Source: Manganibacter manganicus (GTDB lineage: Bacteria; Pseudomonadota; Alphaproteobacteria; Rhizobiales; Rhizobiaceae). Taken from it: a stretch of 64,000 nucleotides of DNA. The stretch covers positions 62,001 through 126,000 of the forward strand of contig NZ_MDET01000045.1 in assembly GCF_002075885.1 (NCBI RefSeq), written 5' to 3'. A program made the translations under genes and the position numbers. The notes under the pieces are model-generated. The model was not told the DNA's origin. It made no database searches and worked only from the letters and a program-made list of their open reading frames with translations. Positions 4,755-17,686 of this stretch are shown here, piece after piece. The first letter of the stretch is position 1; every line of letters starts with the position of its first letter.

Positions 4755-6545
4755 TCAGCTCACAAGCAGATCTGTCGGCTCGAACCGCGTTACGTCGATC
4801 AGGCCAATGTCGGAAATGCGGAGTTCGGGGATGACGACCAGTGCCAAAAGCGAATGCTGCATATAGGCGTTGTTGAGCGTGCAGCCGCAGTCGCGCATCG
4901 CCGTGATCAACGCGTCCGCTTCTTCCGCCACGATCTCGGCACGTTGATCCGACATCAGCCCGGCGATCGGCAGGCGGACCAGCGCCAACTCGCGGCCCTC
5001 GCTATAGACGACGACACCGCCGCCGACCTCCGCCAACCGATTTGCGGCGAGCGCCATGTCCTTTTTGTCGGTCCCGACCACGATCATGTGGTGGCTATCA
5101 TGCGCCACGGTGCTGGCGACGGCGCAAGGCTTGTCGTAGCCGAAGCCGGAGACGAAGCCGTTGGTGACGCCGCCGGTGGCGCGATGGCGTTCGACCAGCG
5201 CGATCTGGCAGACATCGCCCTCGCGGTCCATGCCGACCAGCCCATCCTGGACCGGCAATTCGCATTCCAGCGCCCTGGTCGGCGCCTGGTTTTCGATGAC
5301 ACCGATAACACGCGCCGTCACCTCATTAGCGCCTTCCAGCGCCGGTATGTCGAAATTCTCCGCCGTCAGCGACTTGCCAAGGCGGACCGTGTTCCTGGCG
5401 CTATCGGGATAGCCATAGGGGGGAATATCGGCAGTCAGCCGGCCGTCCTTGGCCATGACCTTGCCGCGCGCGATGACGAGCTCGACGGCCAGCGATGGCA
5501 GGTCGGAGGTCAGGATCAGGTCGGCGCGGCGGCCAGGCGTGATCGAGCCCAGTTCGCGCTCCAGCCCGAAATGCGAAGCCGTGTTGATGGTGGCCATCTG
5601 GATGGCCGTAACCGGGTTCAACCCCTGCGCGATGGCGTGGCGCACCACGCGGTTCATGTGGCCTTCATGCACCAGCGTGCCGGAATGGCTGTCGTCGGTG
5701 CACAACACGAAATGACGCGAGTCGAGTCCGCGCTCCGTCACCGCCTTCACCTGCGCGGCGACATCGTACCAGGCCGAGCCAAGCCTCAGCATGGCGCGCA
5801 TGCCCTGGCGCACACGCGCGATAGCATCATCGAGCGTGGTGCCCTCATGGTCGTCCGCCGGCCCGCCGGCGACATAGCCGTGGAAAGGCAGGCCGAGATC
5901 CTTCGAGGCGTAGTGGCCGCCGACGGTCTTGCCGGCCGCTTGGGTGGCGGCGATCTCGGCCAGCATGTTTGCGTCGCCTGCCGCGACGCCGGGGAAATTC
6001 ATCATCTCGCCGAGGCCGATAATGTTCGGCCATGCCATCGCCTCGCGCACCTCGTTCGGCCCGAGGCTCGCGCCGGCATGCTCCAGTCCGGGCGCGCTCG
6101 GCACGCAACTCGGCATCTGCACGAAAACGTTGATCGGCAGGCCGGCGGCCTCGTCATGCATCAGCTTGACGCCCGCCATGCCGAGCACATTGGCGATCTC
6201 GTGCGGGTCGATGAACATGGAGGTCGTGCCGTGTGGGATGACGGCGCGGGCGAACTCCGTCACCGTGATCATCCCGCTCTCGACATGCATATGCGCGTCG
6301 CACAGGCCCGGCAGCGCATAGCGGCCGGCGCCGTCGATCACCTCGGTTCCGTCACCGATCGCATGCGAGGCATCCGGCCCGACAAAAGCAAAACGGCCGG
6401 CGGAAATCGCCACGTCCGTGCCGGAAATGATCTCGCCCGAATGGACATTCACCCAGCGCACATTTCGCACCACCATGTCGGCGGGCGCCCTGCCCGTCGC
6501 CACGTCCACCAGTTTCGGCGCTCTCTCGGCCCAGCTTTTCATCAT
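4755..6545 (-). CDS. ade: Adenine deaminase
   Basis: A cytosolic metal-dependent amidohydrolase that converts adenine to hypoxanthine and ammonia for purine salvage. The 596 residues include the metal-binding HMHVES motif at the first barrel strand, the family motif DPHEIANVLG, GLGEMMNFPGV with the bridging Glu region, the DDHEG segment, FVLCTDDSH, and the C-terminal AHDSHHM. All hallmark motifs are intact. The start at ATGATG (6545 or 6542) follows a GAGAGGAGA site and overlaps the TGA of the upstream LysR gene, so the two are probably translationally coupled. Length is normal for the family. Confidence 0.92.
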   Translation of the reverse strand: MMKSWAERAPKLVDVATGRAPADMVVRNVRWVNVHSGEIISGTDVAISAGRFAFVGPDASHAIGDGTEVIDGAGRYALPGLCDAHMHVESGMITVTEFARAVIPHGTTSMFIDPHEIANVLGMAGVKLMHDEAAGLPINVFVQMPSCVPSAPGLEHAGASLGPNEVREAMAWPNIIGLGEMMNFPGVAAGDANMLAEIAATQAAGKTVGGHYASKDLGLPFHGYVAGGPADDHEGTTLDDAIARVRQGMRAMLRLGSAWYDVAAQVKAVTERGLDSRHFVLCTDDSHSGTLVHEGHMNRVVRHAIAQGLNPVTAIQMATINTASHFGLERELGSITPGRRADLILTSDLPSLAVELVIARGKVMAKDGRLTADIPPYGYPDSARNTVRLGKSLTAENFDIPALEGANEVTARVIGVIENQAPTRALECELPVQDGLVGMDREGDVCQIALVERHRATGGVTNGFVSGFGYDKPCAVASTVAHDSHHMIVVGTDKKDMALAANRLAEVGGGVVVYSEGRELALVRLPIAGLMSDQRAEIVAEEADALITAMRDCGCTLNNAYMQHSLLALVVIPELRISDIGLIDVTRFEPTDLLVS

Positions 6546-7513
6546 CTCTCCTCTCTCAAAACGGAAGCTTCCGCCGGCGGGCGGACGATCTCGACGCAAT
6601 AGCGCGGCACATTGTTGGCCTCCCGCCGCCGGTAATAGTCGAGGCAGAAATCGAGGAAGGCGGCGAATTTGCGCGAGACGTAGCGCCGGCGCATGTAGAG
6701 AAGGTTGATGGCCGTCGGCGGCGACTGCCACTCAGGCATCACAGGCACCAGATCGCCGTTCATACATTCGATCTCGGTGAAGAAGGCTGGCAGGTAGACG
6801 ATGCCTTCGCCGGCAACGGCGAAATATTTCAGCATCCAGTAGTCGTTCGCCATGCACAGCGCCGAGGGCTCGTGGCGTACGCTCTGGCCCTCGCGCTGCA
6901 GCAGCCAAGGCTCCAGCCCGTTCGGCTGGCGGAAGGCGACGGCATTATGGCGTGCCAGATCGACCGGAATCTTGGGGCTGCCGTGCCGCTCCAGATAGCG
7001 CGGGCTCGCATAGAGGCCGGAGGAGGCTTGGCCAAGCTTGCGCGCGATATAATCGGTGTTCGGCGGATCGCCCCAATAGAAAATGCCGTCGAAGCTCTGC
7101 TGCCGCTCCGGCGCCAGGAAATAGCCGAGCGACAGGAAGATTACCTCGACCCGGATCTGCGGATATTGCCGTCGAAAGGCGTAGAGCAGCTCGGAGGTGA
7201 AGGAGGTGCCGAACTCACCCGTCGAGGCAATGGTGAGCATGCCGGCGATGTCGTGGCGCGCCTCCACGATCGCCGCCTGCGCCCCTTCGCAGCTTTCTCG
7301 GATACGATAGGCATGCTCCAGGAACTCCGCGCCGGCGTCGCTGAGCAACAGGTCACGGCCATCGCGGACGAAGAGTTCGGCACCCAGCGAATCCTCGAGC
7401 TTGCGGACCTTATGGCTGAGGCTCGACTTGGGCAGGCCGAAGAGCTTCGACGCGCGCGACAGCGACTGCGCTTCCGCCACCTTCAGGAAATAGTCTATCG
7501 CTTCGAGGTCCAT
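6542..7513 (-). CDS. LysR-family transcriptional regulator of the purine salvage locus
   Basis: A 323-residue LysR regulator. Residues 1-60 form the winged helix-turn-helix, with YFLKVAEAQSLSRASKLFGL and SSLSHKVRKLEDSLGAELF. The rest is a type-2 periplasmic-binding-like effector domain. ATG 7513 is chosen because the HTH starts immediately after it. The gene overlaps ade in an ATGA arrangement and is divergent from the second deaminase and the transporter genes. Repeated GTCCAA/TTGGAC elements in the shared promoter are likely binding sites. A purine or purine nucleoside as co-inducer is inferred from context only. Confidence 0.88.
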   Translation of the reverse strand: MDLEAIDYFLKVAEAQSLSRASKLFGLPKSSLSHKVRKLEDSLGAELFVRDGRDLLLSDAGAEFLEHAYRIRESCEGAQAAIVEARHDIAGMLTIASTGEFGTSFTSELLYAFRRQYPQIRVEVIFLSLGYFLAPERQQSFDGIFYWGDPPNTDYIARKLGQASSGLYASPRYLERHGSPKIPVDLARHNAVAFRQPNGLEPWLLQREGQSVRHEPSALCMANDYWMLKYFAVAGEGIVYLPAFFTEIECMNGDLVPVMPEWQSPPTAINLLYMRRRYVSRKFAAFLDFCLDYYRRREANNVPRYCVEIVRPPAEASVLREER

Positions 7514-7520
7514 TCGCTTC

Positions 7521-7547
7521 GTCCAATATCTTGGACAAATCGTCCAA
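7521..7547. promoter_or_regulatory. Candidate LysR operator: three spaced GTCCAA/TTGGAC half-sites
   Basis: GTCCAA (7521-7526), TTGGAC (7531-7536) and GTCCAA (7542-7547) form two overlapping dyads with 4- and 5-bp gaps, starting 8 bp upstream of the LysR start codon. They lie in the 156-bp region that must control both the LysR-ade and the deaminase-transporter units. The array suits autoregulation plus divergent activation, but binding is inferred. Confidence 0.55.
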
Positions 7548-7669
7548 GAATTAATCGAAACCGCGTATTGCCTGAACGATGCTAATCCGACATTCTCTTC
7601 CGAGACAAGAGGCAATCGCGCCGGGACCACAGGGAGCAGCGGCTCCCCGGCGAAGGGACAGGGGGAGCC

Positions 7670-9439
7670 GTGACCGATATCCGCGATTTCATCCGCGCCG
7701 GCCGCGCCGAACTCAAGGCGACGCTGATCGTCAGCGGCGGGACGCTTGTCAATGTCACCTCGGAGGAAATCTATCCGGCGGATGTCGCAATCTACCAGGA
7801 TCGTATCGTTGCCGTCGGCGACGTGTCCGATTATCGCGGACCTGAGACCGAGATCGTCGACGCTACCGACCATTACCTTTGCCCCGGCATGATCGACGGC
7901 CATCTGCATGTCGAATGCTCGAAGATGTCGGTCACCAGCTTCGCCAAGGCGGTGGTGCCGCTCGGCACAACCTCGATCATCTCCGGACTCGACCAGATCC
8001 TCGTGGTGTCGGGGCTCGAAGGCGCGCGCGAATTCCTTGACGAGGCGAAAGCCTCGCCCCTGAAGATATTCTGGGGCGCACCCTGCAAGACGCCCTACAC
8101 GCTGCCGCGCTCCAATGTCGGCTATTATTTCGGCCCCGACGACCATCTCGCCACCCATTCCTGGCCCGAATGCGTCGGTATATGGGAGACGGTGCGCGAA
8201 TTCGTCGACACGATGGACGATGACGTGCTGGCCGCGATTGAGCTTGCGGAGAAGACCAGGCTCCCGATCCTCGGCTGCTCGCCCATGTGCCGAGGCCACA
8301 AGCTCAACAGCTATCTGCAGGCTGGCGTGCGCGCCGACCACGAGAGCTACGACGCCGAGGAGATGCTGGAGAAGCTGCGCAAGGGCATGCATGTCGTGGT
8401 GCGCGAATCCTCGATCTCGCATTTCCTGACCGAGAATCTGCGCATCGTCACGGAAATGGGCATCACCGCCACCGGCCGCATCAGCTTCTGCACCGACGAC
8501 GTCGTTGCCAGTGACATCCTCGAGCGCGGCCATCTCGACAACATGGTGCGCATGGCGATCCGCATGGGTGTGCCGCCGCTCACCGCGATCCAGATGGCGA
8601 CGATCAACGGCGCCGAGGCGCTGAAGATCGCAAACAAGGTCGGCTCGATCTCGCCAGGGCTTGCGGCCGACATATTGCTGGTCAAGGACCTCGATGATTT
8701 CCGCGTCTCGACGGTCATCGCCAAGGGCAAGCTGGCCGCCCGGAAGGGCGCGCTGGTCGCCGACCTGCCGCCACCACCGCGCAGCACGGCAATCACAAAG
8801 ACCTTCAAGGTCGATCGCGTGACGCGCGACGACTTGGTCGTGCGCGCCGATACTGCGGATGCCGAAATCCCGGTGCTGACGCTTGCCGTAACGCCTGACA
8901 AGATCTTCGTGCGCAAGCGCCGCGACGTCACGCTTCCCGTCCGCGACGGCATTGTCGAGGCCGATCCGGCAAAGGACGTGCAATATGTCTGCGTGGTCGA
9001 GCGCTACGGGAAAACGCGTAACCGACCGGTCGCCTTCACCTCCGGCTTCGGCCTGCGCTCCGGTGCATTGGCGACCTCGACCGCGCCCGACGACAACAAC
9101 ATCGTCTGCGTCGGCACCAATCCGGACGACATGGCGGCTGCCATCAATCACATCATCGACAATCAGGGCGGCCAGGTGGTCGTCGATGGCGGCAAGGTCA
9201 TTTCCTTCCTGCCGCTGCCCATAGGCGGCATCGTCTCCGATATCGAGCCACGGGAGATGGCCGGGAAGGAAAAGGCGCTGGACGAAGCTGCCAGGACCCT
9301 CGGCTGCGCCCTGCCCTGGCCCTTCATGTACATGTTCGTCCTGCAGATCACCGCAATTCCCGACTACGCCATAACCGATCTCGGGGCGATCGATTGCGTG
9401 CGGCTCAAGGTCGTGGACCCGCTAAAGCCTGCCGCCTGA
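7670..9439 (+). CDS. Adenine deaminase-family amidohydrolase, divergent paralogue
   Basis: A 589-residue protein of the adenine deaminase family with full-length architecture. It keeps the first-strand metal motif (HLHVEC), GIWET in place of GLGE, the LNSYLQAGVRADHES segment and FCTDD. It lacks the PHEIANV motif, where SGLDQILVVSG stands instead. It also lacks the C-terminal HDSH motif, which reads PDDN. The start is GTG 7670 behind CAGGGGGA. It is the first gene of the unit ending with the BMP-type importer. It probably deaminates a related base or nucleoside, or is a low-activity variant; true adenine deaminase activity should not be assumed. Confidence 0.82.
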   Translation: MTDIRDFIRAGRAELKATLIVSGGTLVNVTSEEIYPADVAIYQDRIVAVGDVSDYRGPETEIVDATDHYLCPGMIDGHLHVECSKMSVTSFAKAVVPLGTTSIISGLDQILVVSGLEGAREFLDEAKASPLKIFWGAPCKTPYTLPRSNVGYYFGPDDHLATHSWPECVGIWETVREFVDTMDDDVLAAIELAEKTRLPILGCSPMCRGHKLNSYLQAGVRADHESYDAEEMLEKLRKGMHVVVRESSISHFLTENLRIVTEMGITATGRISFCTDDVVASDILERGHLDNMVRMAIRMGVPPLTAIQMATINGAEALKIANKVGSISPGLAADILLVKDLDDFRVSTVIAKGKLAARKGALVADLPPPPRSTAITKTFKVDRVTRDDLVVRADTADAEIPVLTLAVTPDKIFVRKRRDVTLPVRDGIVEADPAKDVQYVCVVERYGKTRNRPVAFTSGFGLRSGALATSTAPDDNNIVCVGTNPDDMAAAINHIIDNQGGQVVVDGGKVISFLPLPIGGIVSDIEPREMAGKEKALDEAARTLGCALPWPFMYMFVLQITAIPDYAITDLGAIDCVRLKVVDPLKPAA

Positions 9440-9465: not shown

Positions 9466-10479
9466 ATGCTGAAGACAGTGGGACTTGCCCTCGCCATGCT
9501 GGCGGGACTGTCATTCGCGGCCGGCGATGCTTTCGCCGAAGAGCCGACGAAGCTGAAGATTGCCGGTATCCTTTCGGCCGGCAAGGAGGCGCCTTGGGAG
9601 ACCTCCTTCGTCAACTCGATGAACCGCGTCATAGCGGCCAAGCCGCATGGGCTCGACATCGAGGTGAACTACACCGAAAACGTCTACGACAATGCCGAGC
9701 AGGTCTTTCGCACCTATGCCCAGACCGGCGAATACGATATTCTTTTCGGCGATACCGCCTATGTCGACGCGATCGAGGCGTTGAAGGACGAATTTCCCGA
9801 AACCATGTTCGTGATGTCCGGCTCCGGCAATCACGGGCTCGGCGGCAATGCCTACTGGATCTTCATCCATGCGCACGAGCCGGCCTATGTCATGGGCCAG
9901 TTCGCAGGCAAGCTGACCAAGTCGAACGTCATCGGCGCCATATCGACCTTCCCGGCGGAGGACACGAACGACCAGATCAACGCCTTCTTCCAGGGTGCGC
10001 GCGACGTAAACCCGGAGGTCAAGGCGAAGATGACCTTCATCCAGTCGTGGTTCGATCCGACCAAGTCCAACGAGGCGACGTCAGCCCAGATTGCCGCCGG
10101 CGCCGACATGATCTACCAGATGTCGGGCGCCTTCGAAGTCTGCGAGGAACGGCAGATCGGCTGCTTCGGCAATTATGTCGACATGTCGAAGGTGGCGCCG
10201 AAATCGATCGTCGCGTCCACGATCGTCAAATGGGATCCGCACATCAACTGGATCATCGACCAATGGTGGAAGGCCAAGACCACCGATGCCGAGTTCGACG
10301 CGCCGATGAAGCCGAAATGGTTTCCCTGGTCCGAAGGCTCCGGCGACCTGGTCGTCAATCCGGCCTGGAAGGACAAGATTCCGGCAGACGTGCTCGCGCT
10401 TGCCAAAAAGACCGAAGAGGCGATCAAGAACGGCGAGAAGAAGATCGAACTCGACATGAGTGAGCCCAAGGCCGAATAG
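9466..10479 (+). CDS. BMP-family ABC transporter substrate-binding protein
   Basis: A 337-residue periplasmic binding protein of the basic membrane protein (BMP/Med) family, whose characterised members bind purine nucleosides. Residues 1-23 form a Sec signal ending in DAFA-EE. The mature domain has the GAISTFPAEDTNDQINAF segment and the two-lobe fold. ATG 9466 follows AAGGGAGGA at 9451-9459. Encoded 26 bp after the deaminase paralogue and before the ATPase and permease genes, it supplies the ligand-recognition component of the importer. The ligand is inferred to be a purine base or nucleoside because both deaminases are adjacent. Confidence 0.9.
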   Translation: MLKTVGLALAMLAGLSFAAGDAFAEEPTKLKIAGILSAGKEAPWETSFVNSMNRVIAAKPHGLDIEVNYTENVYDNAEQVFRTYAQTGEYDILFGDTAYVDAIEALKDEFPETMFVMSGSGNHGLGGNAYWIFIHAHEPAYVMGQFAGKLTKSNVIGAISTFPAEDTNDQINAFFQGARDVNPEVKAKMTFIQSWFDPTKSNEATSAQIAAGADMIYQMSGAFEVCEERQIGCFGNYVDMSKVAPKSIVASTIVKWDPHINWIIDQWWKAKTTDAEFDAPMKPKWFPWSEGSGDLVVNPAWKDKIPADVLALAKKTEEAIKNGEKKIELDMSEPKAE

Positions 10480-10501
10480 CCGGGCAGCGAGCGGGGTTCC
10501 G

Positions 10502-12028
10502 ATGGATACGACCACGCCGGCGAGGCTCTCCGTCCGCCACCTGACCAAGAGCTTCGGCCAGATGGTGGCAAACCAGGATATCTCACTTGATATCCTGGCG
10601 GGCGAGTTGCACTGCCTGCTCGGTGAAAACGGGGCCGGCAAGTCGACCCTTTCCTCCTGTCTTTACGGCCTCTACCAGCCGGATGAAGGCGAGATCCGGA
10701 TCGACGGCGCGCCCGTCGATCTCAACTCGCCGGGAGACGCGATCCGTGCCGGCATCGGCATGGTGCATCAGCATTTCGTGCTCGTGCCGACTTTCACGGT
10801 GCTGGAGAACATCGCCGTCGGCACCGGTTCCGGGCTTTCGCTCGACCGCCGCAGCGCACTGCGGCGCATCGCTGTGATCTGCGAAGAATACGATATCCCG
10901 CTTGCCCCCGACCGGTTGGCGGGCGACCTGTCGGTCGGCGAGCAGCAATGGGTGGAAATCGTCAAGGCGCTCTATACGGGCGCGCGGCTCCTGATCCTCG
11001 ACGAGCCGACGGCGGTACTGACGCCCGACGAGTCGCGCAAGCTTTTCGCCGTCATCCGCCGTCTGATCGATGACGGCATCTCGGTCATGCTCATCAGCCA
11101 CAAGATGACGGAGGTCATGCAGTCCGACCGCGTCAGCGTGTTGCGCAAGGGTCGGCTGGTTGCGACCGTCAAAACCGCGGAGGTGACGCGCGACAAGCTG
11201 ACTGCCATGATGATCGGCGGCCAGCCGCCTTCCGCCGCACGCGCCCAACGCGACACGGTAGGCAGCGGACAGGTCTTGTCTGTGCGCGATCTCACCCTCT
11301 CGCGCGACGGCAGACCGGCGCTCGGCGAGGTTTCCTTCGATCTCGCGGCAGGCGAGATTCTCGGCATAGCCGGCGTATCCGGCAATGGACAGGACGATAT
11401 CTTCGAATGCCTGGCTGGCCTGACGACGCCGGATTCCGGCTCGATCGCCATCGAGGGCAAGGCGCTTCTGCACGCCTCCCCCGCCGAGATGGCGGGGCGC
11501 GGCGTCGGCTACGTCCCAAGCGACCGCTTCCGCGACGGGCTGGTTTCGGATTTGACCATTGCGGAGAACCTGACGCTCGGCCAGCAATGGAGTTCGCGCT
11601 GGCGTAAGGGTCCTCTGCTCGACCGAACCGCACTCGATACAAACGCCGAAACCGCTATCGCCGATTACGCGATCGCCGCGCCCGGTCCCTCGGCGCGCTG
11701 CGGCAAGCTTTCCGGGGGCAACGCGCAGAAGGTGATACTGGCGCGCGAATTCGCCAAGGCGCGGCGCATCCTTCTCTGCAACCAGCCGACGCGCGGCCTC
11801 GATGTCGGCGCGGTCGGCTTCGTGCACCGTGAATTACAGCGCAAGCGCGACGAGGGCTGCGCCATCCTGCTCGCCAGCGAGGAACTCGACGACCTTTTCC
11901 AGCTCGCCGATCGCATTATGGTCATGTTCCGCGGCCGCGTGATGGCTACGCTCGACACACAGGCGGCGACCTATGAACAGGTCGGGCATCTAATGGCCGG
12001 GCAAGAAAAGCAGGCGGCCGCCGCATGA
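10502..12028 (+). CDS. ABC transporter ATP-binding protein, two fused ATPase domains (nucleoside type)
   Basis: A 508-residue double ATPase energising the BMP-type importer. The first domain has Walker A GENGAGKST (41-49), a signature LSVGEQQWVEI and Walker B LLILDEPTAV. The second has the degenerate Walker A GVSGNGQDD, a signature LSGGNAQKV and LLCNQPTRGLD. Asymmetry of this kind is normal for the sugar/nucleoside RbsA-like family. ATG 10502 is chosen because alignment begins there and GAGCGGGG precedes it. Its stop overlaps the next gene by 4 nt. Confidence 0.92.
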   Translation: MDTTTPARLSVRHLTKSFGQMVANQDISLDILAGELHCLLGENGAGKSTLSSCLYGLYQPDEGEIRIDGAPVDLNSPGDAIRAGIGMVHQHFVLVPTFTVLENIAVGTGSGLSLDRRSALRRIAVICEEYDIPLAPDRLAGDLSVGEQQWVEIVKALYTGARLLILDEPTAVLTPDESRKLFAVIRRLIDDGISVMLISHKMTEVMQSDRVSVLRKGRLVATVKTAEVTRDKLTAMMIGGQPPSAARAQRDTVGSGQVLSVRDLTLSRDGRPALGEVSFDLAAGEILGIAGVSGNGQDDIFECLAGLTTPDSGSIAIEGKALLHASPAEMAGRGVGYVPSDRFRDGLVSDLTIAENLTLGQQWSSRWRKGPLLDRTALDTNAETAIADYAIAAPGPSARCGKLSGGNAQKVILAREFAKARRILLCNQPTRGLDVGAVGFVHRELQRKRDEGCAILLASEELDDLFQLADRIMVMFRGRVMATLDTQAATYEQVGHLMAGQEKQAAAA

Positions 12029-13107
12029 GCGCCATCACGCTCGCCGCATGGCGCCTGGAACGCCGCCGCGAGCAACGGCCGGGCGCCCGCTTCGTCGGGC
12101 TTGCGGTGGCGCTTGCCGGCGCCCTTATCCTTTGCAGCCTGCTTTTCGTCGCGGCGGGCGCCAGTCCGCTGCACGCTTTCTCCGCTCTCCTGAAAGGCAG
12201 CTTCGGTTCGCTGCGAGCCACCGGCGAGACGCTGGTCAAGGCGACGCCGCTGATCTTCACCGGACTTGCCGCATGCGTCGCCTTCCGTGCCCGCATCTGG
12301 AACATCGGCGCCGAAGGCCAGGTCTTCGCCGGCGCCATGTGCGCATTCTGGATCCAGCACAATCTCGCCGGCTTCCCGGCGGCAGTTCAACTCCCGGTGA
12401 TCGTGATCGCCAGCATCGTCGGCGGCGCGCTCTATGCCGGGATCGCCGCGGTGTTGAAGACACGCTTCTCTGTCGACGAGGTGATCTCGACGGTGATGCT
12501 CAACTACATCATCGTCTATGTGCTCTCGCTCCTGCTGCTCAACGGTCCATGGAGCGAGGCCGGCGGCTTCTTCGAGCAGACGGCAAGGATAGACAAGAGC
12601 GCCTGGCTGCCGGTGCTCCTTTCCGGCACGCGGCTGCATGCCGGCTTCCTGCTGGCGCTGGCGGCCGCGGTGCTCGTGCAGATCCTGCTTTCGCGAACGC
12701 CGCTAGGCTATGAGATCAAGGCCGCCGGTTCCAATCTGCGCGCACTCGAGGTGCAGGGCACGAATGTCCGCCGCGTCATCCTCGTCGTGCTGCTGGTTTC
12801 CGGCGCGCTTGCCGGGCTCGCCGGCATCACCGAGGTCTATGGCGTACATCACCGGCTGAAGGCCGGCGCCATCATGGGATACGGCTATACCGGCATCATC
12901 GTCGCTATCCTCGGCCAGCTCCACCCGGCAGGCATCGTCGTGGCGGCGATCCTGTTCGGCGCGCTGGTCAACGGGGGGACTCTGATGCAGATCGAGACCG
13001 GCGTCCCCTCCGCCTTGATCTATGCCATCGAGGCGATCCTGCTGCTCTTCTTCCTCGGCGGCTGGTCGGCCTGCAATTTCCGCCTCAGGAGGGTGCGCCA
13101 TGCTTGA
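12025..13107 (+). CDS. ABC transporter permease (nucleoside/BMP-type system), first subunit
   Basis: A 360-residue inner-membrane permease of the BPD_transp_2 family. After a short basic N-terminus come eight or more hydrophobic segments. The conserved cytoplasmic stretch GYEIKAAGSNLRALEVQG, which contacts the ATPase, is near residues 230-247. ATGA overlap with the ATPase gene and an 8-nt overlap with the next permease gene indicate one operon with coupled translation. Confidence 0.9.
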   Translation: MSAITLAAWRLERRREQRPGARFVGLAVALAGALILCSLLFVAAGASPLHAFSALLKGSFGSLRATGETLVKATPLIFTGLAACVAFRARIWNIGAEGQVFAGAMCAFWIQHNLAGFPAAVQLPVIVIASIVGGALYAGIAAVLKTRFSVDEVISTVMLNYIIVYVLSLLLLNGPWSEAGGFFEQTARIDKSAWLPVLLSGTRLHAGFLLALAAAVLVQILLSRTPLGYEIKAAGSNLRALEVQGTNVRRVILVVLLVSGALAGLAGITEVYGVHHRLKAGAIMGYGYTGIIVAILGQLHPAGIVVAAILFGALVNGGTLMQIETGVPSALIYAIEAILLLFFLGGWSACNFRLRRVRHA

Positions 13108-14038
13108 CCAGCTCCTGCAGGCCTCGATTCTGGCCAGTATCGCCGCCGCCACCATCCGCATAGCCACGCCATTGCTTCTTGCCGCAATCGGCGAGCTCGT
13201 CGCAGAACGCAGCGGCGTCTACAATATGGGCGTTGAAGGCATGATGCTGATGGGCGCCTTCATCGGCTATCTGGCGGCCTATGAGAGCGGCTCGCTCTGG
13301 TTCGGCGTCTTCGCCGCTGCTCTCACCGGCGGCCTCATGGCCCTGGTCTTCGCGATCATGACAATCACGCTCAAAGTCGAGCAGATCGTAACGGGCCTTG
13401 CGCTCAACCTGCTCGGCGCCGGCCTTTCCAATTATTGGCTGCGCGCTGCCTTCGCCGGCGAGGGCAAGACGCCCGTAATCCCCCATTTCTCCGATGTGCC
13501 GATTCCGGGTCTGAGCGAGTTGCCGCTCGTCGGTCCGATCCTGTTCGACCAGCGCGTGCTCACCTATCTTGCCTTCCTGCTCGTCCCTGTGGTCTGGTTC
13601 TTCCTGTTCCGGACCCGCTACGGGCTGATCGTGCGCTGCGCCGGCGAGAACCCGAAGGCACTCGACGTAAAAGGCGTTGGGGTCGCTCCGGTGCAATATG
13701 CCGCCGTGATCTTCGGTGGGATCATGGCCGGAATCGGCGGCGCATTCCTGTCGGTCGGCTCCGCCGCCCGTTTCGTGCCGGACATGACCAACGGGCGCGG
13801 CTGGCTCGTGATCATCATCGTCATCGCCGGCCTGTGGCGGCCATGGCCGGTGCTTGTCGCGACGCTGGCCTTTTCGCTGCTCGATGCATTGCAACTCCAG
13901 ATCCAGGGCATCGGCCTAGACGTCCCCTATCAGTTACTGCTGATGATGCCCTATGTGGTGGCGATCGTCGCACTTGCGATCCGCCCCTCGCGCGGCGGTG
14001 CCCCCGCTACCCTCGGTGTGCCTTATCTGCGCGAGTGA
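13100..14038 (+). CDS. ABC transporter permease (nucleoside/BMP-type system), second subunit
   Basis: A 312-residue partner permease of the same family. The early segment VAERSGVYNMGVEGMMLMGA is typical of the second subunit of BMP-type importers, and RCAGENPKALDVKGV is the ATPase-contacting loop. ATG 13100 is preferred because AGGAGGG lies at 13087-13093 and the preceding gene ends at 13107. It is the last gene of the importer operon; the next gene is convergent. Confidence 0.9.
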   Translation: MLDQLLQASILASIAAATIRIATPLLLAAIGELVAERSGVYNMGVEGMMLMGAFIGYLAAYESGSLWFGVFAAALTGGLMALVFAIMTITLKVEQIVTGLALNLLGAGLSNYWLRAAFAGEGKTPVIPHFSDVPIPGLSELPLVGPILFDQRVLTYLAFLLVPVVWFFLFRTRYGLIVRCAGENPKALDVKGVGVAPVQYAAVIFGGIMAGIGGAFLSVGSAARFVPDMTNGRGWLVIIIVIAGLWRPWPVLVATLAFSLLDALQLQIQGIGLDVPYQLLLMMPYVVAIVALAIRPSRGGAPATLGVPYLRE

Positions 14039-16763: not shown

Positions 16764-17183
16764 TCAAAATCCTCCGAGACGATTGAAACGTGAGCCGAGC
16801 GCGTGGCCGAGCCAGACCGACAACAGCCATGCAGCAATCGAAACACCGACATAAAGGCCAGACAAGGCAAGATCGCCGGCGTTCAAGAATCTGAATGCCT
16901 CAAGGCTGAAGACCGAAAAGGTGGTGAAGCCGCCGCATATGCCCGTCATCACGAACTGACGCTGGTACACACTGGCGAAAATCCGCCCGTTCGGCCCGGT
17001 GATCGCCGCATAGAAGCCGATGATCAACGAGCCGGCAACATTGACGAACAGCGTGCCCCACGGAAATGCCGCTCCGATCCAGGCAAGCGCGGCCAGCGAC
17101 GCCAGGGCGCGCAGCACGCTGCCGATGACCGAGCCGATCGCGACGACAGCATAGAGGGACAATATTTCGCGCGAGCCGCTCAT
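16764..17183 (-). CDS. crcB: Fluoride ion channel CrcB/Fluc, second subunit
   Basis: A 139-residue membrane protein with four hydrophobic segments, one partner of a dual-topology Fluc channel that lets fluoride leave the cytoplasm. Family motifs are GSVLRALAS, FPWGTLFVNVAGSLIIGF and GICGGFTTFSVFSLE, the last containing the phenylalanine and threonine cluster of the pore. Its ATG at 17183 overlaps the TGA of the upstream crcB in ATGA. Paired crcB genes usually encode oppositely oriented subunits that form a heterodimer. Confidence 0.92.
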   Translation of the reverse strand: MSGSREILSLYAVVAIGSVIGSVLRALASLAALAWIGAAFPWGTLFVNVAGSLIIGFYAAITGPNGRIFASVYQRQFVMTGICGGFTTFSVFSLEAFRFLNAGDLALSGLYVGVSIAAWLLSVWLGHALGSRFNRLGGF

Positions 17184-17587
17184 CAAAGGCCGGCTCCCGG
17201 CAGGACGATGCCCGCGCCATAGCCGAGCGCCACGCCCGCGAGGCACAGGAGCAAAGACAGCGCAATATTGCCGCCGGCCTTGAGGAATTCACCGTCAAGC
17301 GCGAGCGCCATGGTTTGCAGGCTGAACGAGGAAACCGTGGTGTAGGCGCCGAGGAAGCCGGTGACGGCGAATTGCCATCCGGCCGGCATGGGCATCAATC
17401 CCTCAATCGTCGCGGCGGCAGCGAGAAGCCCGACGGCGAATGCGCCGCTGACATTGACCGCCATCGTGCCCCAAGGAAAGGTTTCGCCGACATGCCGCCC
17501 GATCAAGCCCGACACGAAGTAGCGCGCCGGGCCGCCGAGGGCGCTGCCGAGCGCCACCCAGATCATGACATGAAGCATGCTCTGCAT
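17183..17587 (-). CDS. crcB: Fluoride ion channel CrcB/Fluc, first subunit
   Basis: A 134-residue Fluc subunit with four hydrophobic segments. It carries GSALGGPARYFVSG, FPWGTMAVNVSGAFAVGL and GFLGAYTTVSSFSLQ, the signature regions of the family. The ATG at 17587 has a GAAGGG site about 8 nt upstream. A transcribed leader of about 190 nt separates it from the fluoride aptamer at 17778-17826, so expression should rise with fluoride. First gene of crcB-crcB-DUF190. Confidence 0.92.
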   Translation of the reverse strand: MQSMLHVMIWVALGSALGGPARYFVSGLIGRHVGETFPWGTMAVNVSGAFAVGLLAAAATIEGLMPMPAGWQFAVTGFLGAYTTVSSFSLQTMALALDGEFLKAGGNIALSLLLCLAGVALGYGAGIVLPGAGL

Positions 17588-17604
17588 ATGATCCAACCCT
17601 TCCC

Positions 17605-17686
17605 GGCAGGGCGCAAATCCCTTTTGCAACCCTGCCGCTCATCGTCTCGACCGACCCCATGGCATCACCTCGCGGTAATGCCATGG
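17605..17686 (-). promoter_or_regulatory. Two long hairpins in the crcB leader, candidate expression platform
   Basis: In the minus-strand RNA, CCATGGCATTACC and GGTGATGCCATGG (17686-17674 and 17669-17657) pair over 13 bp around a GCGA tetraloop, with one G-U pair that would be a mismatch on the opposite strand. A second hairpin pairs GGCAGGG with CCCTGCC (17605-17636), extended inside by GCAAA/TTTGC. It ends about 18 nt before the crcB start codon. Neither is followed by a U-run. The lower one could affect ribosome access. The link to the aptamer is inferred. Confidence 0.45.

Follow-up and report, generated by a model that had tools for sequence, protein, structure and literature searches.

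A COG1001 amidohydrolase lineage, apparently separate from adenine deaminase and from YerA, that probably handles a modified purine base

The closest described systems lie within COG1001. One is adenine deaminase (Ade or AdeC), with Atu4426 (PDB 3NQB and 3T81) as a solved example; its adenine contacts, as given in an excerpt of PMC12133300, are Arg260, His94 and Asp289/290. The other is subgroup 2, where a portion of PMC13296781 places YerA and Bh0637, deaminases of N6-methyladenine and N6-methyladenosine. These two use N6-methylated adenine rather than adenine (excerpts of PMC12133300 and PMC13296781); E. coli AdeC does not use N6-methyladenine, according to the same portion of PMC13296781. 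In the excerpt of PMC12133300, YerA prefers the nucleoside over the base, and its two metals are held by H87, H89, E179, H210, H231 and D283. More widely, enzymes of the amidohydrolase superfamily (AHS) that prefer alkylated bases provide precedents (PMC13054789, in extract). The cytokinin deaminase Patl2390, of COG1816 group 3, is described in part of PMC13296781 as an AHS deaminase that prefers N6-alkyl adenines over adenine; it belongs to a different COG from the protein considered here, and is likened to it by described activity, not by sequence.

That protein, designated X, is a COG1001 amidohydrolase paralogue of 589 aa, encoded from a GTG start at 7670-9439 (+) in the window, by which is meant the whole 64,000-nucleotide stretch of Manganibacter manganicus DNA that was analysed. 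Upstream on the minus strand lie a LysR-type regulator (6542-7513), divergent from X, and a canonical adenine deaminase of 596 aa (Ade, 4755-6545), the Ade ATG overlapping the LysR stop by four bases. Downstream on the plus strand follow a BMP-family substrate-binding protein (PF02608; 9466-10479), an ABC ATPase of the tandem type (10502-12028, scanned for domains over 10508-12028), and ABC permeases 1 (12025-13107) and 2 (13100-14038, scanned over 13097-14038), both PF02653. With a PF02608 binding protein, a tandem ATPase and two BPD_transp_2 permeases in one operon (9466-14038), this is a BMP-type ABC importer. The gap from X to the BMP gene is 26 bases and that from the BMP gene to the ATPase gene 22 bases; the later importer genes overlap. 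X is therefore, as a reading of the sequence alone had it, the first gene of an importer operon, which in the window reaches 14038.

The divergent region between the LysR gene and X holds a putative operator (7521-7548, +), made of the perfect palindrome GTCCAATATCTTGGAC (7521-7536) and a third half-site. The palindrome has one match in the window when one mismatch is allowed, with 0.10 expected and at least one match in 9 of 100 shuffles. When upstream regions are aligned, related boxes can be picked out by eye at nine other loci; at eight of the nine, the gene after X is an NCS2 permease, not a BMP gene.

X shares with Ade/AdeC the two-domain full-length fold, the HxH pair, the bridging Glu, DHE, the Arg and TDD; it differs in having Cys for the beta-5 His, in the replacement of DPHE and HDSH, and in its score with the adenine deaminase equivalog TIGR01178 (375.5 bits, under the curated cut-off of 472.5; the neighbouring Ade scores 493.9). 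Identity between X and Ade is 33% over 561 aligned columns. COG1001 membership is clear from Pfam, with 83.4 bits for the PF01979 barrel (cut-off 25) and 183 bits for the PF13382 C-terminal domain (cut-off 27). An AlphaFold2 model of X (mean pLDDT 95.7) finds 3nqb as its best fold match (Z 44.9, 571 residues, 29% identity), followed by 3T81; the best entry that is not an Ade reaches Z 22.6. In the model, then, X has the full-length fold of 3NQB.

The earlier reading had pointed to two altered motifs in a full-length Ade relative, and this observation stands, in stronger form than it was stated. At residues 106-109 (7985-7996, +) the alignment places GLDQ where Ade has DPHE, the wider match being GLDQILVV (from the codon at 7985) against DPHEIANV; in the C-terminal domain PDDN, at residues 473-476 (9086-9097, +), replaces HDSH. 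X thus lacks the DPHE and HDSH pair that marks adenine deaminase. A scan of genome contigs supplied the best 80 loci for comparison, not as a census; 66 of these belong to the X clade. They were aligned with the window protein, two loci being cut by contig ends (the N-terminal part is missing from L065, and L061 breaks off after the Pro). Among the matches listed, every one of the 66 covering rows has GLD at 106-108, followed at 109 by Q in 40 rows and E in 26; PDDN likewise fills 473-476 in all 66 rows that cover it. Changes fixed in every covering row of the clade are neither chance nor sequencing error.

The remaining active-site landmarks, all on the plus strand, are largely retained, as had also been noticed before. 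Strand beta-1 carries HLHVEC (7901-7918), with metal ligands H78 and H80 and a clade-specific C83; beta-4 carries W172 and E173 (8183-8188), E173 being at the bridging Glu position; H224 and E225 form the DHE of beta-6 (8339-8344), and D276 and D277 the TDD of beta-8 (8495-8500). Between the last two lies the segment from R245, which is kept, to S247 (8402-8410), a position that is Gly in canonical Ade and Ser in YerA-type rows. At the end of beta-3 runs a segment from W135, common to YerA-type rows, to K140, which is clade-specific (63 of 66; 8072-8089). H78, H80, E173, H224, E225, R245, D276 and D277 are invariant both in the X rows (49 after deduplication) and in 41 canonical rows, and the same eight catalytic-type residues appear in 66 of 66 covering rows of the clade alignment, among the matches listed. 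This invariance argues that X hydrolyses something.

The claim that went further, to a working metal site with its ligands kept, is not supported as worded. Cys203 (8276-8278, +), the last residue of beta-5, takes the place of a metal-ligand His; alignment and model agree on this, and in the AlphaFold2 model Cys203 ends the strand 200-203 where the beta-5 His belongs. Among the matches listed the residue is Cys in 65 of 66 covering clade rows and Ser in one (L041); of the 58 non-X rows of the tree alignment, 57 have His there and one (L060_A) has Gln. Set against the six YerA ligands from the excerpt of PMC12133300, the equivalents are H78/H87, H80/H89, E173/E179, Cys203/H210, H224/H231 and D276/D283, so that by alignment X keeps five of the six ligands of the binuclear site (HxH, Glu, beta-5 His, beta-6 His, Asp). 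This change and the clade-specific Cys83, Lys140 and Trp172 were missing from the earlier reading. Comparison of the 49 X rows with the 41 canonical rows gives the diagnostic positions, listed here as the X residue with the canonical one in brackets: C83 (S), G106 (D), D108 (H), K140 (C; 46/49), S148 (E), W172 (G/A), V175 (M), E177 (P), S247 (G; 48/49), R415 (T), P473 (H), D475 (S), N476 (H) and I560 (L). Judged from these alignments the metal site is a rebuilt one, with no visible sign of being dead.

A tree of 108 rows (a quick IQ-TREE run without bootstrap, several long branches flagged) places the 49 X rows on one side of a branch with SH-aLRT 99. In it a wide distance separates X from the alphaproteobacterial Ade, and X as a local duplicate of the neighbouring Ade was rejected. 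Membership in the YerA clade was rejected as well: nine YerA-type rows form a clade of their own (support 100) and 14 X rows another (support 99), although only L134 of the nine is tied directly to a YerA structure (9JQL, of the C-terminal domain; 235.5 bits). The YerA type is like X in its COG1001 architecture, in also lacking DPHE and HDSH, and in W135 and S247; it differs in retaining the beta-5 His and D106 and in reading TDG or NDG where X has TDD. A special convergence of the two is weak, since at the thresholds set only two positions (W135 and S247) are common to X and YerA alone, against five common to Ade and YerA alone. As the X clade is separate from both in the trees, X would represent a third COG1001 lineage, neither Ade nor YerA. 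The branch occurs in Alphaproteobacteria, Bacillota, Actinomycetota and other phyla; no description of it turned up in searches of the open-licence PMC library, and the annotated records examined label X-type proteins adenine deaminase.

Just outside X in the tree lie the protein of L060 (row L092), that of L066, and then those of L069 and L070. L092 has K140, FDQ and PDDE, yet retains the beta-5 His; these residues and the order of the outgroups suggest that the loop changes preceded the change of His to Cys. The four intermediate proteins (L060:10001-11737, L066:2515-4221, L069:10001-11737, L070:10001-11701) carry FDQ or DLHE/DLME with the beta-5 His retained, and possibly represent further specificities; those of L066, L069 and L070 adjoin TRZ/ATZ-type hydrolases.

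Being first gene of the operon, X had been supposed to act on the main ligand of the BMP importer. Its neighbours weaken this. X is monophyletic, and among the matches listed the importers adjoining it at the 66 loci are BMP ABC in 14, NCS2-type in 28, a permease of unassigned family in nine, NCS1 in eight and none seen in seven (at two of the seven, L022 and L038, an ABC/BMP set lies some kilobases off on the other strand). BMP-importer dependence as a general rule, the co-occurrence that had been proposed as a check together with a COG1001 tree, was rejected on this count. Wherever a Pfam family was found, it assigns the transporter adjoining X to a nucleobase or nucleoside type; two permease-like proteins of about 520 aa (L027:13575-15140, + and L024:11785-13344, +), from a kind found beside X in Clostridia, Sphaerochaeta and relatives, have no Pfam or NCBIfam match in either copy.

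The more constant neighbour of X is a deaminase gene, not the BMP importer. Among the matches listed, a COG1001 Ade lies within 6.5 kb at 37 of the 66 loci and a COG1816 deaminase relative at 20; the adjacent Ade partners in the tree retain DPHE, the beta-5 His and HDSH. Sinorhizobium meliloti offers an example of such a pairing: the pSymA record of strain 1021 (L093) contains both X and an Ade ORF, and the annotation of strain ml28 reads X, NCS2 permease, Ade. Neither lies within 6.5 kb at nine of the 66 among the matches listed (L001, L003, L020, L041, L052, L055, L058, L061 and L065, several on short contigs), and whole-genome searches recovered another COG1001 protein or a COG1816 gene in eight of these nine. 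The candidate in the L020 genome is of a divergent DSHE type, and the L058 genome has a COG1816 gene 14 kb from X; the search of the L065 genome, a MAG in which X is cut by a contig end, found neither a COG1001 relative nor a COG1816 gene. In three genome samples, set out below, each of the 13 carriers of X has such a gene no more than 5 kb away. X thus belongs to a recurrent module, in which the importer is of purine type but varies in family and the deaminase-type gene is a canonical-type Ade or else a COG1816 variant; which of the two it is changes at least four times on the X tree.

The COG1816 partner has its own nearest solved relatives: for the copy at L114 these are 3ou8 (316 bits) and 3rys (269 bits), both of which we take to be adenine deaminases, 3ou8 presumably being the structure of Pa0148. 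They belong to the type 2 adenine deaminases of COG1816 and are relatives of the partner, not of X. Pa0148 is called an adenine deaminase in a title within a reference list. A plain adenine-deaminase reading of the partner, drawn from 3ou8 and 3rys, was qualified once the HAGE motif proved absent: where 3ou8 has HAGEE the partner has H[CA]D[VI]D, and a HAGE-like match was absent from 27 of 27 partner hits (25 distinct, L096/L114 and L097/L115 being the same genes). The partner may be an adenine deaminase, but the assignment is uncertain. Examples of the variant beside X are L043:7085-8104 (-) and L114:4666-5655 (+); a Companilactobacillus strain is among those that carry the HAGE-less gene. 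It occurs also without X in the order of G213 (the genome of L054, Loigolactobacillus), with HCDIDQ in seven of the eight copies looked at; in seven X-less genomes of that order whose COG1816 gene was inspected, no neighbour was common to all.

The distinct branch, the rebuilt metal site and the usual adenine-deaminase-type neighbour together make it probable that X handles a modified purine base. The earlier inference of a changed pocket, and so probably of a different substrate, agrees with this, given a clade of its own, a score under the Ade cut-off and the persistence of X beside Ade; its interpretation was half right, and a new specificity is likely. As to what X binds, R245, H80 and D276/D277 correspond to Arg260, His94 and Asp289/290 of Atu4426, which are said to contact the purine ring, so a purine is likely; a small base is suggested by the small-base permeases that many X genes have as neighbours, and an aminopurine related to adenine by the deaminase gene nearby. 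There is also one purine riboswitch, at L061:1666-1768, about 180 bases ahead of an ABC-BMP-X operon and the only one at 24 loci searched; by eye, from the Rfam alignment and position numbering, it is of the guanine/hypoxanthine class. This single case fits salvage better than breakdown. These points, joined with the likeness to YerA, favour with modest confidence hydrolysis at the C6 amine of an N6-substituted adenine.

The proposal, held tentatively and a little short of evenly, is that X is an active hydrolase with a remodelled metal site, that its substrate is a small modified aminopurine, with N6-substituted adenine the leading candidate, and that it works in a purine-salvage module with the importer and an adenine-deaminase-type partner. 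The importer would take up small aminopurine bases; the partner would deaminate adenine; X would act on a related base closed to Ade, and the likeliest reaction would be hydrolysis of the C6 amine in N6-methyl-, N6,N6-dimethyl- or a larger N6-alkyladenine, giving hypoxanthine for salvage. Cys203 might take the place of His at the second metal, or the site might turn mononuclear, and the altered loops would give room to the N6 group. The fuller claim commands less assurance still: that X is a new class of purine amidohydrolase with Cys at beta-5 of a binuclear site, perhaps helped by Lys140 of beta-3, and that, joined by interchangeable importers and by either canonical Ade or the COG1816 deaminase without HAGE, it makes up a salvage pathway for a modified purine base, so far undescribed, in several bacterial phyla.

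Several observations weaken the choice of N6-substituted adenine. X departs from YerA exactly at the beta-5 ligand and D106; the COG1816 partner lacks HAGE, and nine of 66 loci, among the matches listed, have no partner within 6.5 kb; the riboswitch stands at one locus in 24; YerA favours the nucleoside over the base; and in L041 residue 203 is Ser.

One alternative sees X as an isozyme of adenine deaminase, its Cys site suited to another metal or resistant to oxidation, and kept beside Ade for different conditions. The residues said to contact adenine (R245, H80, D276/D277) are indeed retained, and X adjoins Ade and purine importers. This account is nevertheless rather unlikely. Beyond DPHE and HDSH, ten diagnostic positions are near-fixed across phyla, more than a metal swap needs; and at many Bacillota loci X and Ade are directly tandem, with alignment ends 42-172 bases apart, so that they are probably co-expressed rather than alternates.

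A second perspective supposes that X acts upstream of its partner, freeing adenine from an N6-acyl or otherwise conjugated adenine, which the partner then deaminates. The dependence is one-sided, as this would have it. In the sample of the window's order, X occurs in 5 of 199 genomes (the window's own, G000, among them), and each of the five has a COG1001 Ade at a distance of 1.1-4.7 kb, whereas some COG1001 match occurs in 97 of 199 and X is absent from 92 of those 97. In the order of G213, X occurs in 6 of 295 genomes, one with Ade about 70 bases away and five with a COG1816 gene about 1.6 kb away; the COG1816 gene itself is in 17 of 295 (E 1e-70), and 12 of the 17 lack X (five of six X carriers having the gene: hypergeometric p = 2.0e-6, ignoring relatedness). 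The class sample has X in 3 of 385 genomes, G000 again among them, and its two new carriers have a COG1816 gene about 40 bases away. Taken together the three samples give 13 distinct carriers, the window's genome included, and every one has a deaminase-type gene no more than 5 kb off, Ade in six and COG1816 in seven. However, many X genes adjoin NCS2 or NCS1 permeases, which by family carry small bases, the known COG1001 reaction attacks ring C6 and not an exocyclic carbonyl, and we know of no common N6-acyl or conjugated adenine that could serve as substrate; adenine release is accordingly unlikely.

The substrate might instead be another small purine (isoguanine, 2,6-diaminopurine or 8-oxoadenine), or X might open the purine ring. 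AHS members span many such reactions, and with K140 and C203 the remodelled site could suit a different chemistry. The salvage-type riboswitch ahead of the operon, in its one case, speaks against this, as does a most constant partner of adenine-deaminase type; lactobacilli, which carry X, have to our knowledge little purine breakdown. Such a role is distinctly improbable. A deaminase gene lies within 6.5 kb of X at 57 of the 66 loci, among the matches listed, and so frequent a pairing might suggest that X serves adenine deaminase as a subunit, either non-catalytic or regulatory. This is highly improbable, since eight catalytic-type residues are invariant in the covering rows and a fixed heteromer sits poorly with a partner that, on the X tree, passes from one sequence family to another at least four times (44 labelled rows, 26 Ade and 18 COG1816; five X rows without an adjacent partner, and L092, left unlabelled).

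If, as modified-purine hydrolysis would imply, X-type proteins are not adenine deaminases, then proteins encoded on rhizobial megaplasmids and others as distant as those of gut Clostridia and lactobacilli are mislabelled, and the misnomer may conceal an unrecorded way of recovering modified purines, for example from RNA turnover or plant cytokinins. A metal-ligand change across a whole clade, with the rest of the active site retained, is also a natural test of how far an amidohydrolase site tolerates Cys; and the tie to a deaminase partner of switching family opens the pathway to genetic tests. Elsewhere in the window, two adjoining small membrane ORFs at 16764-17629 (-) resemble, by eye only, a tandem fluoride-channel (CrcB/FluC) pair.
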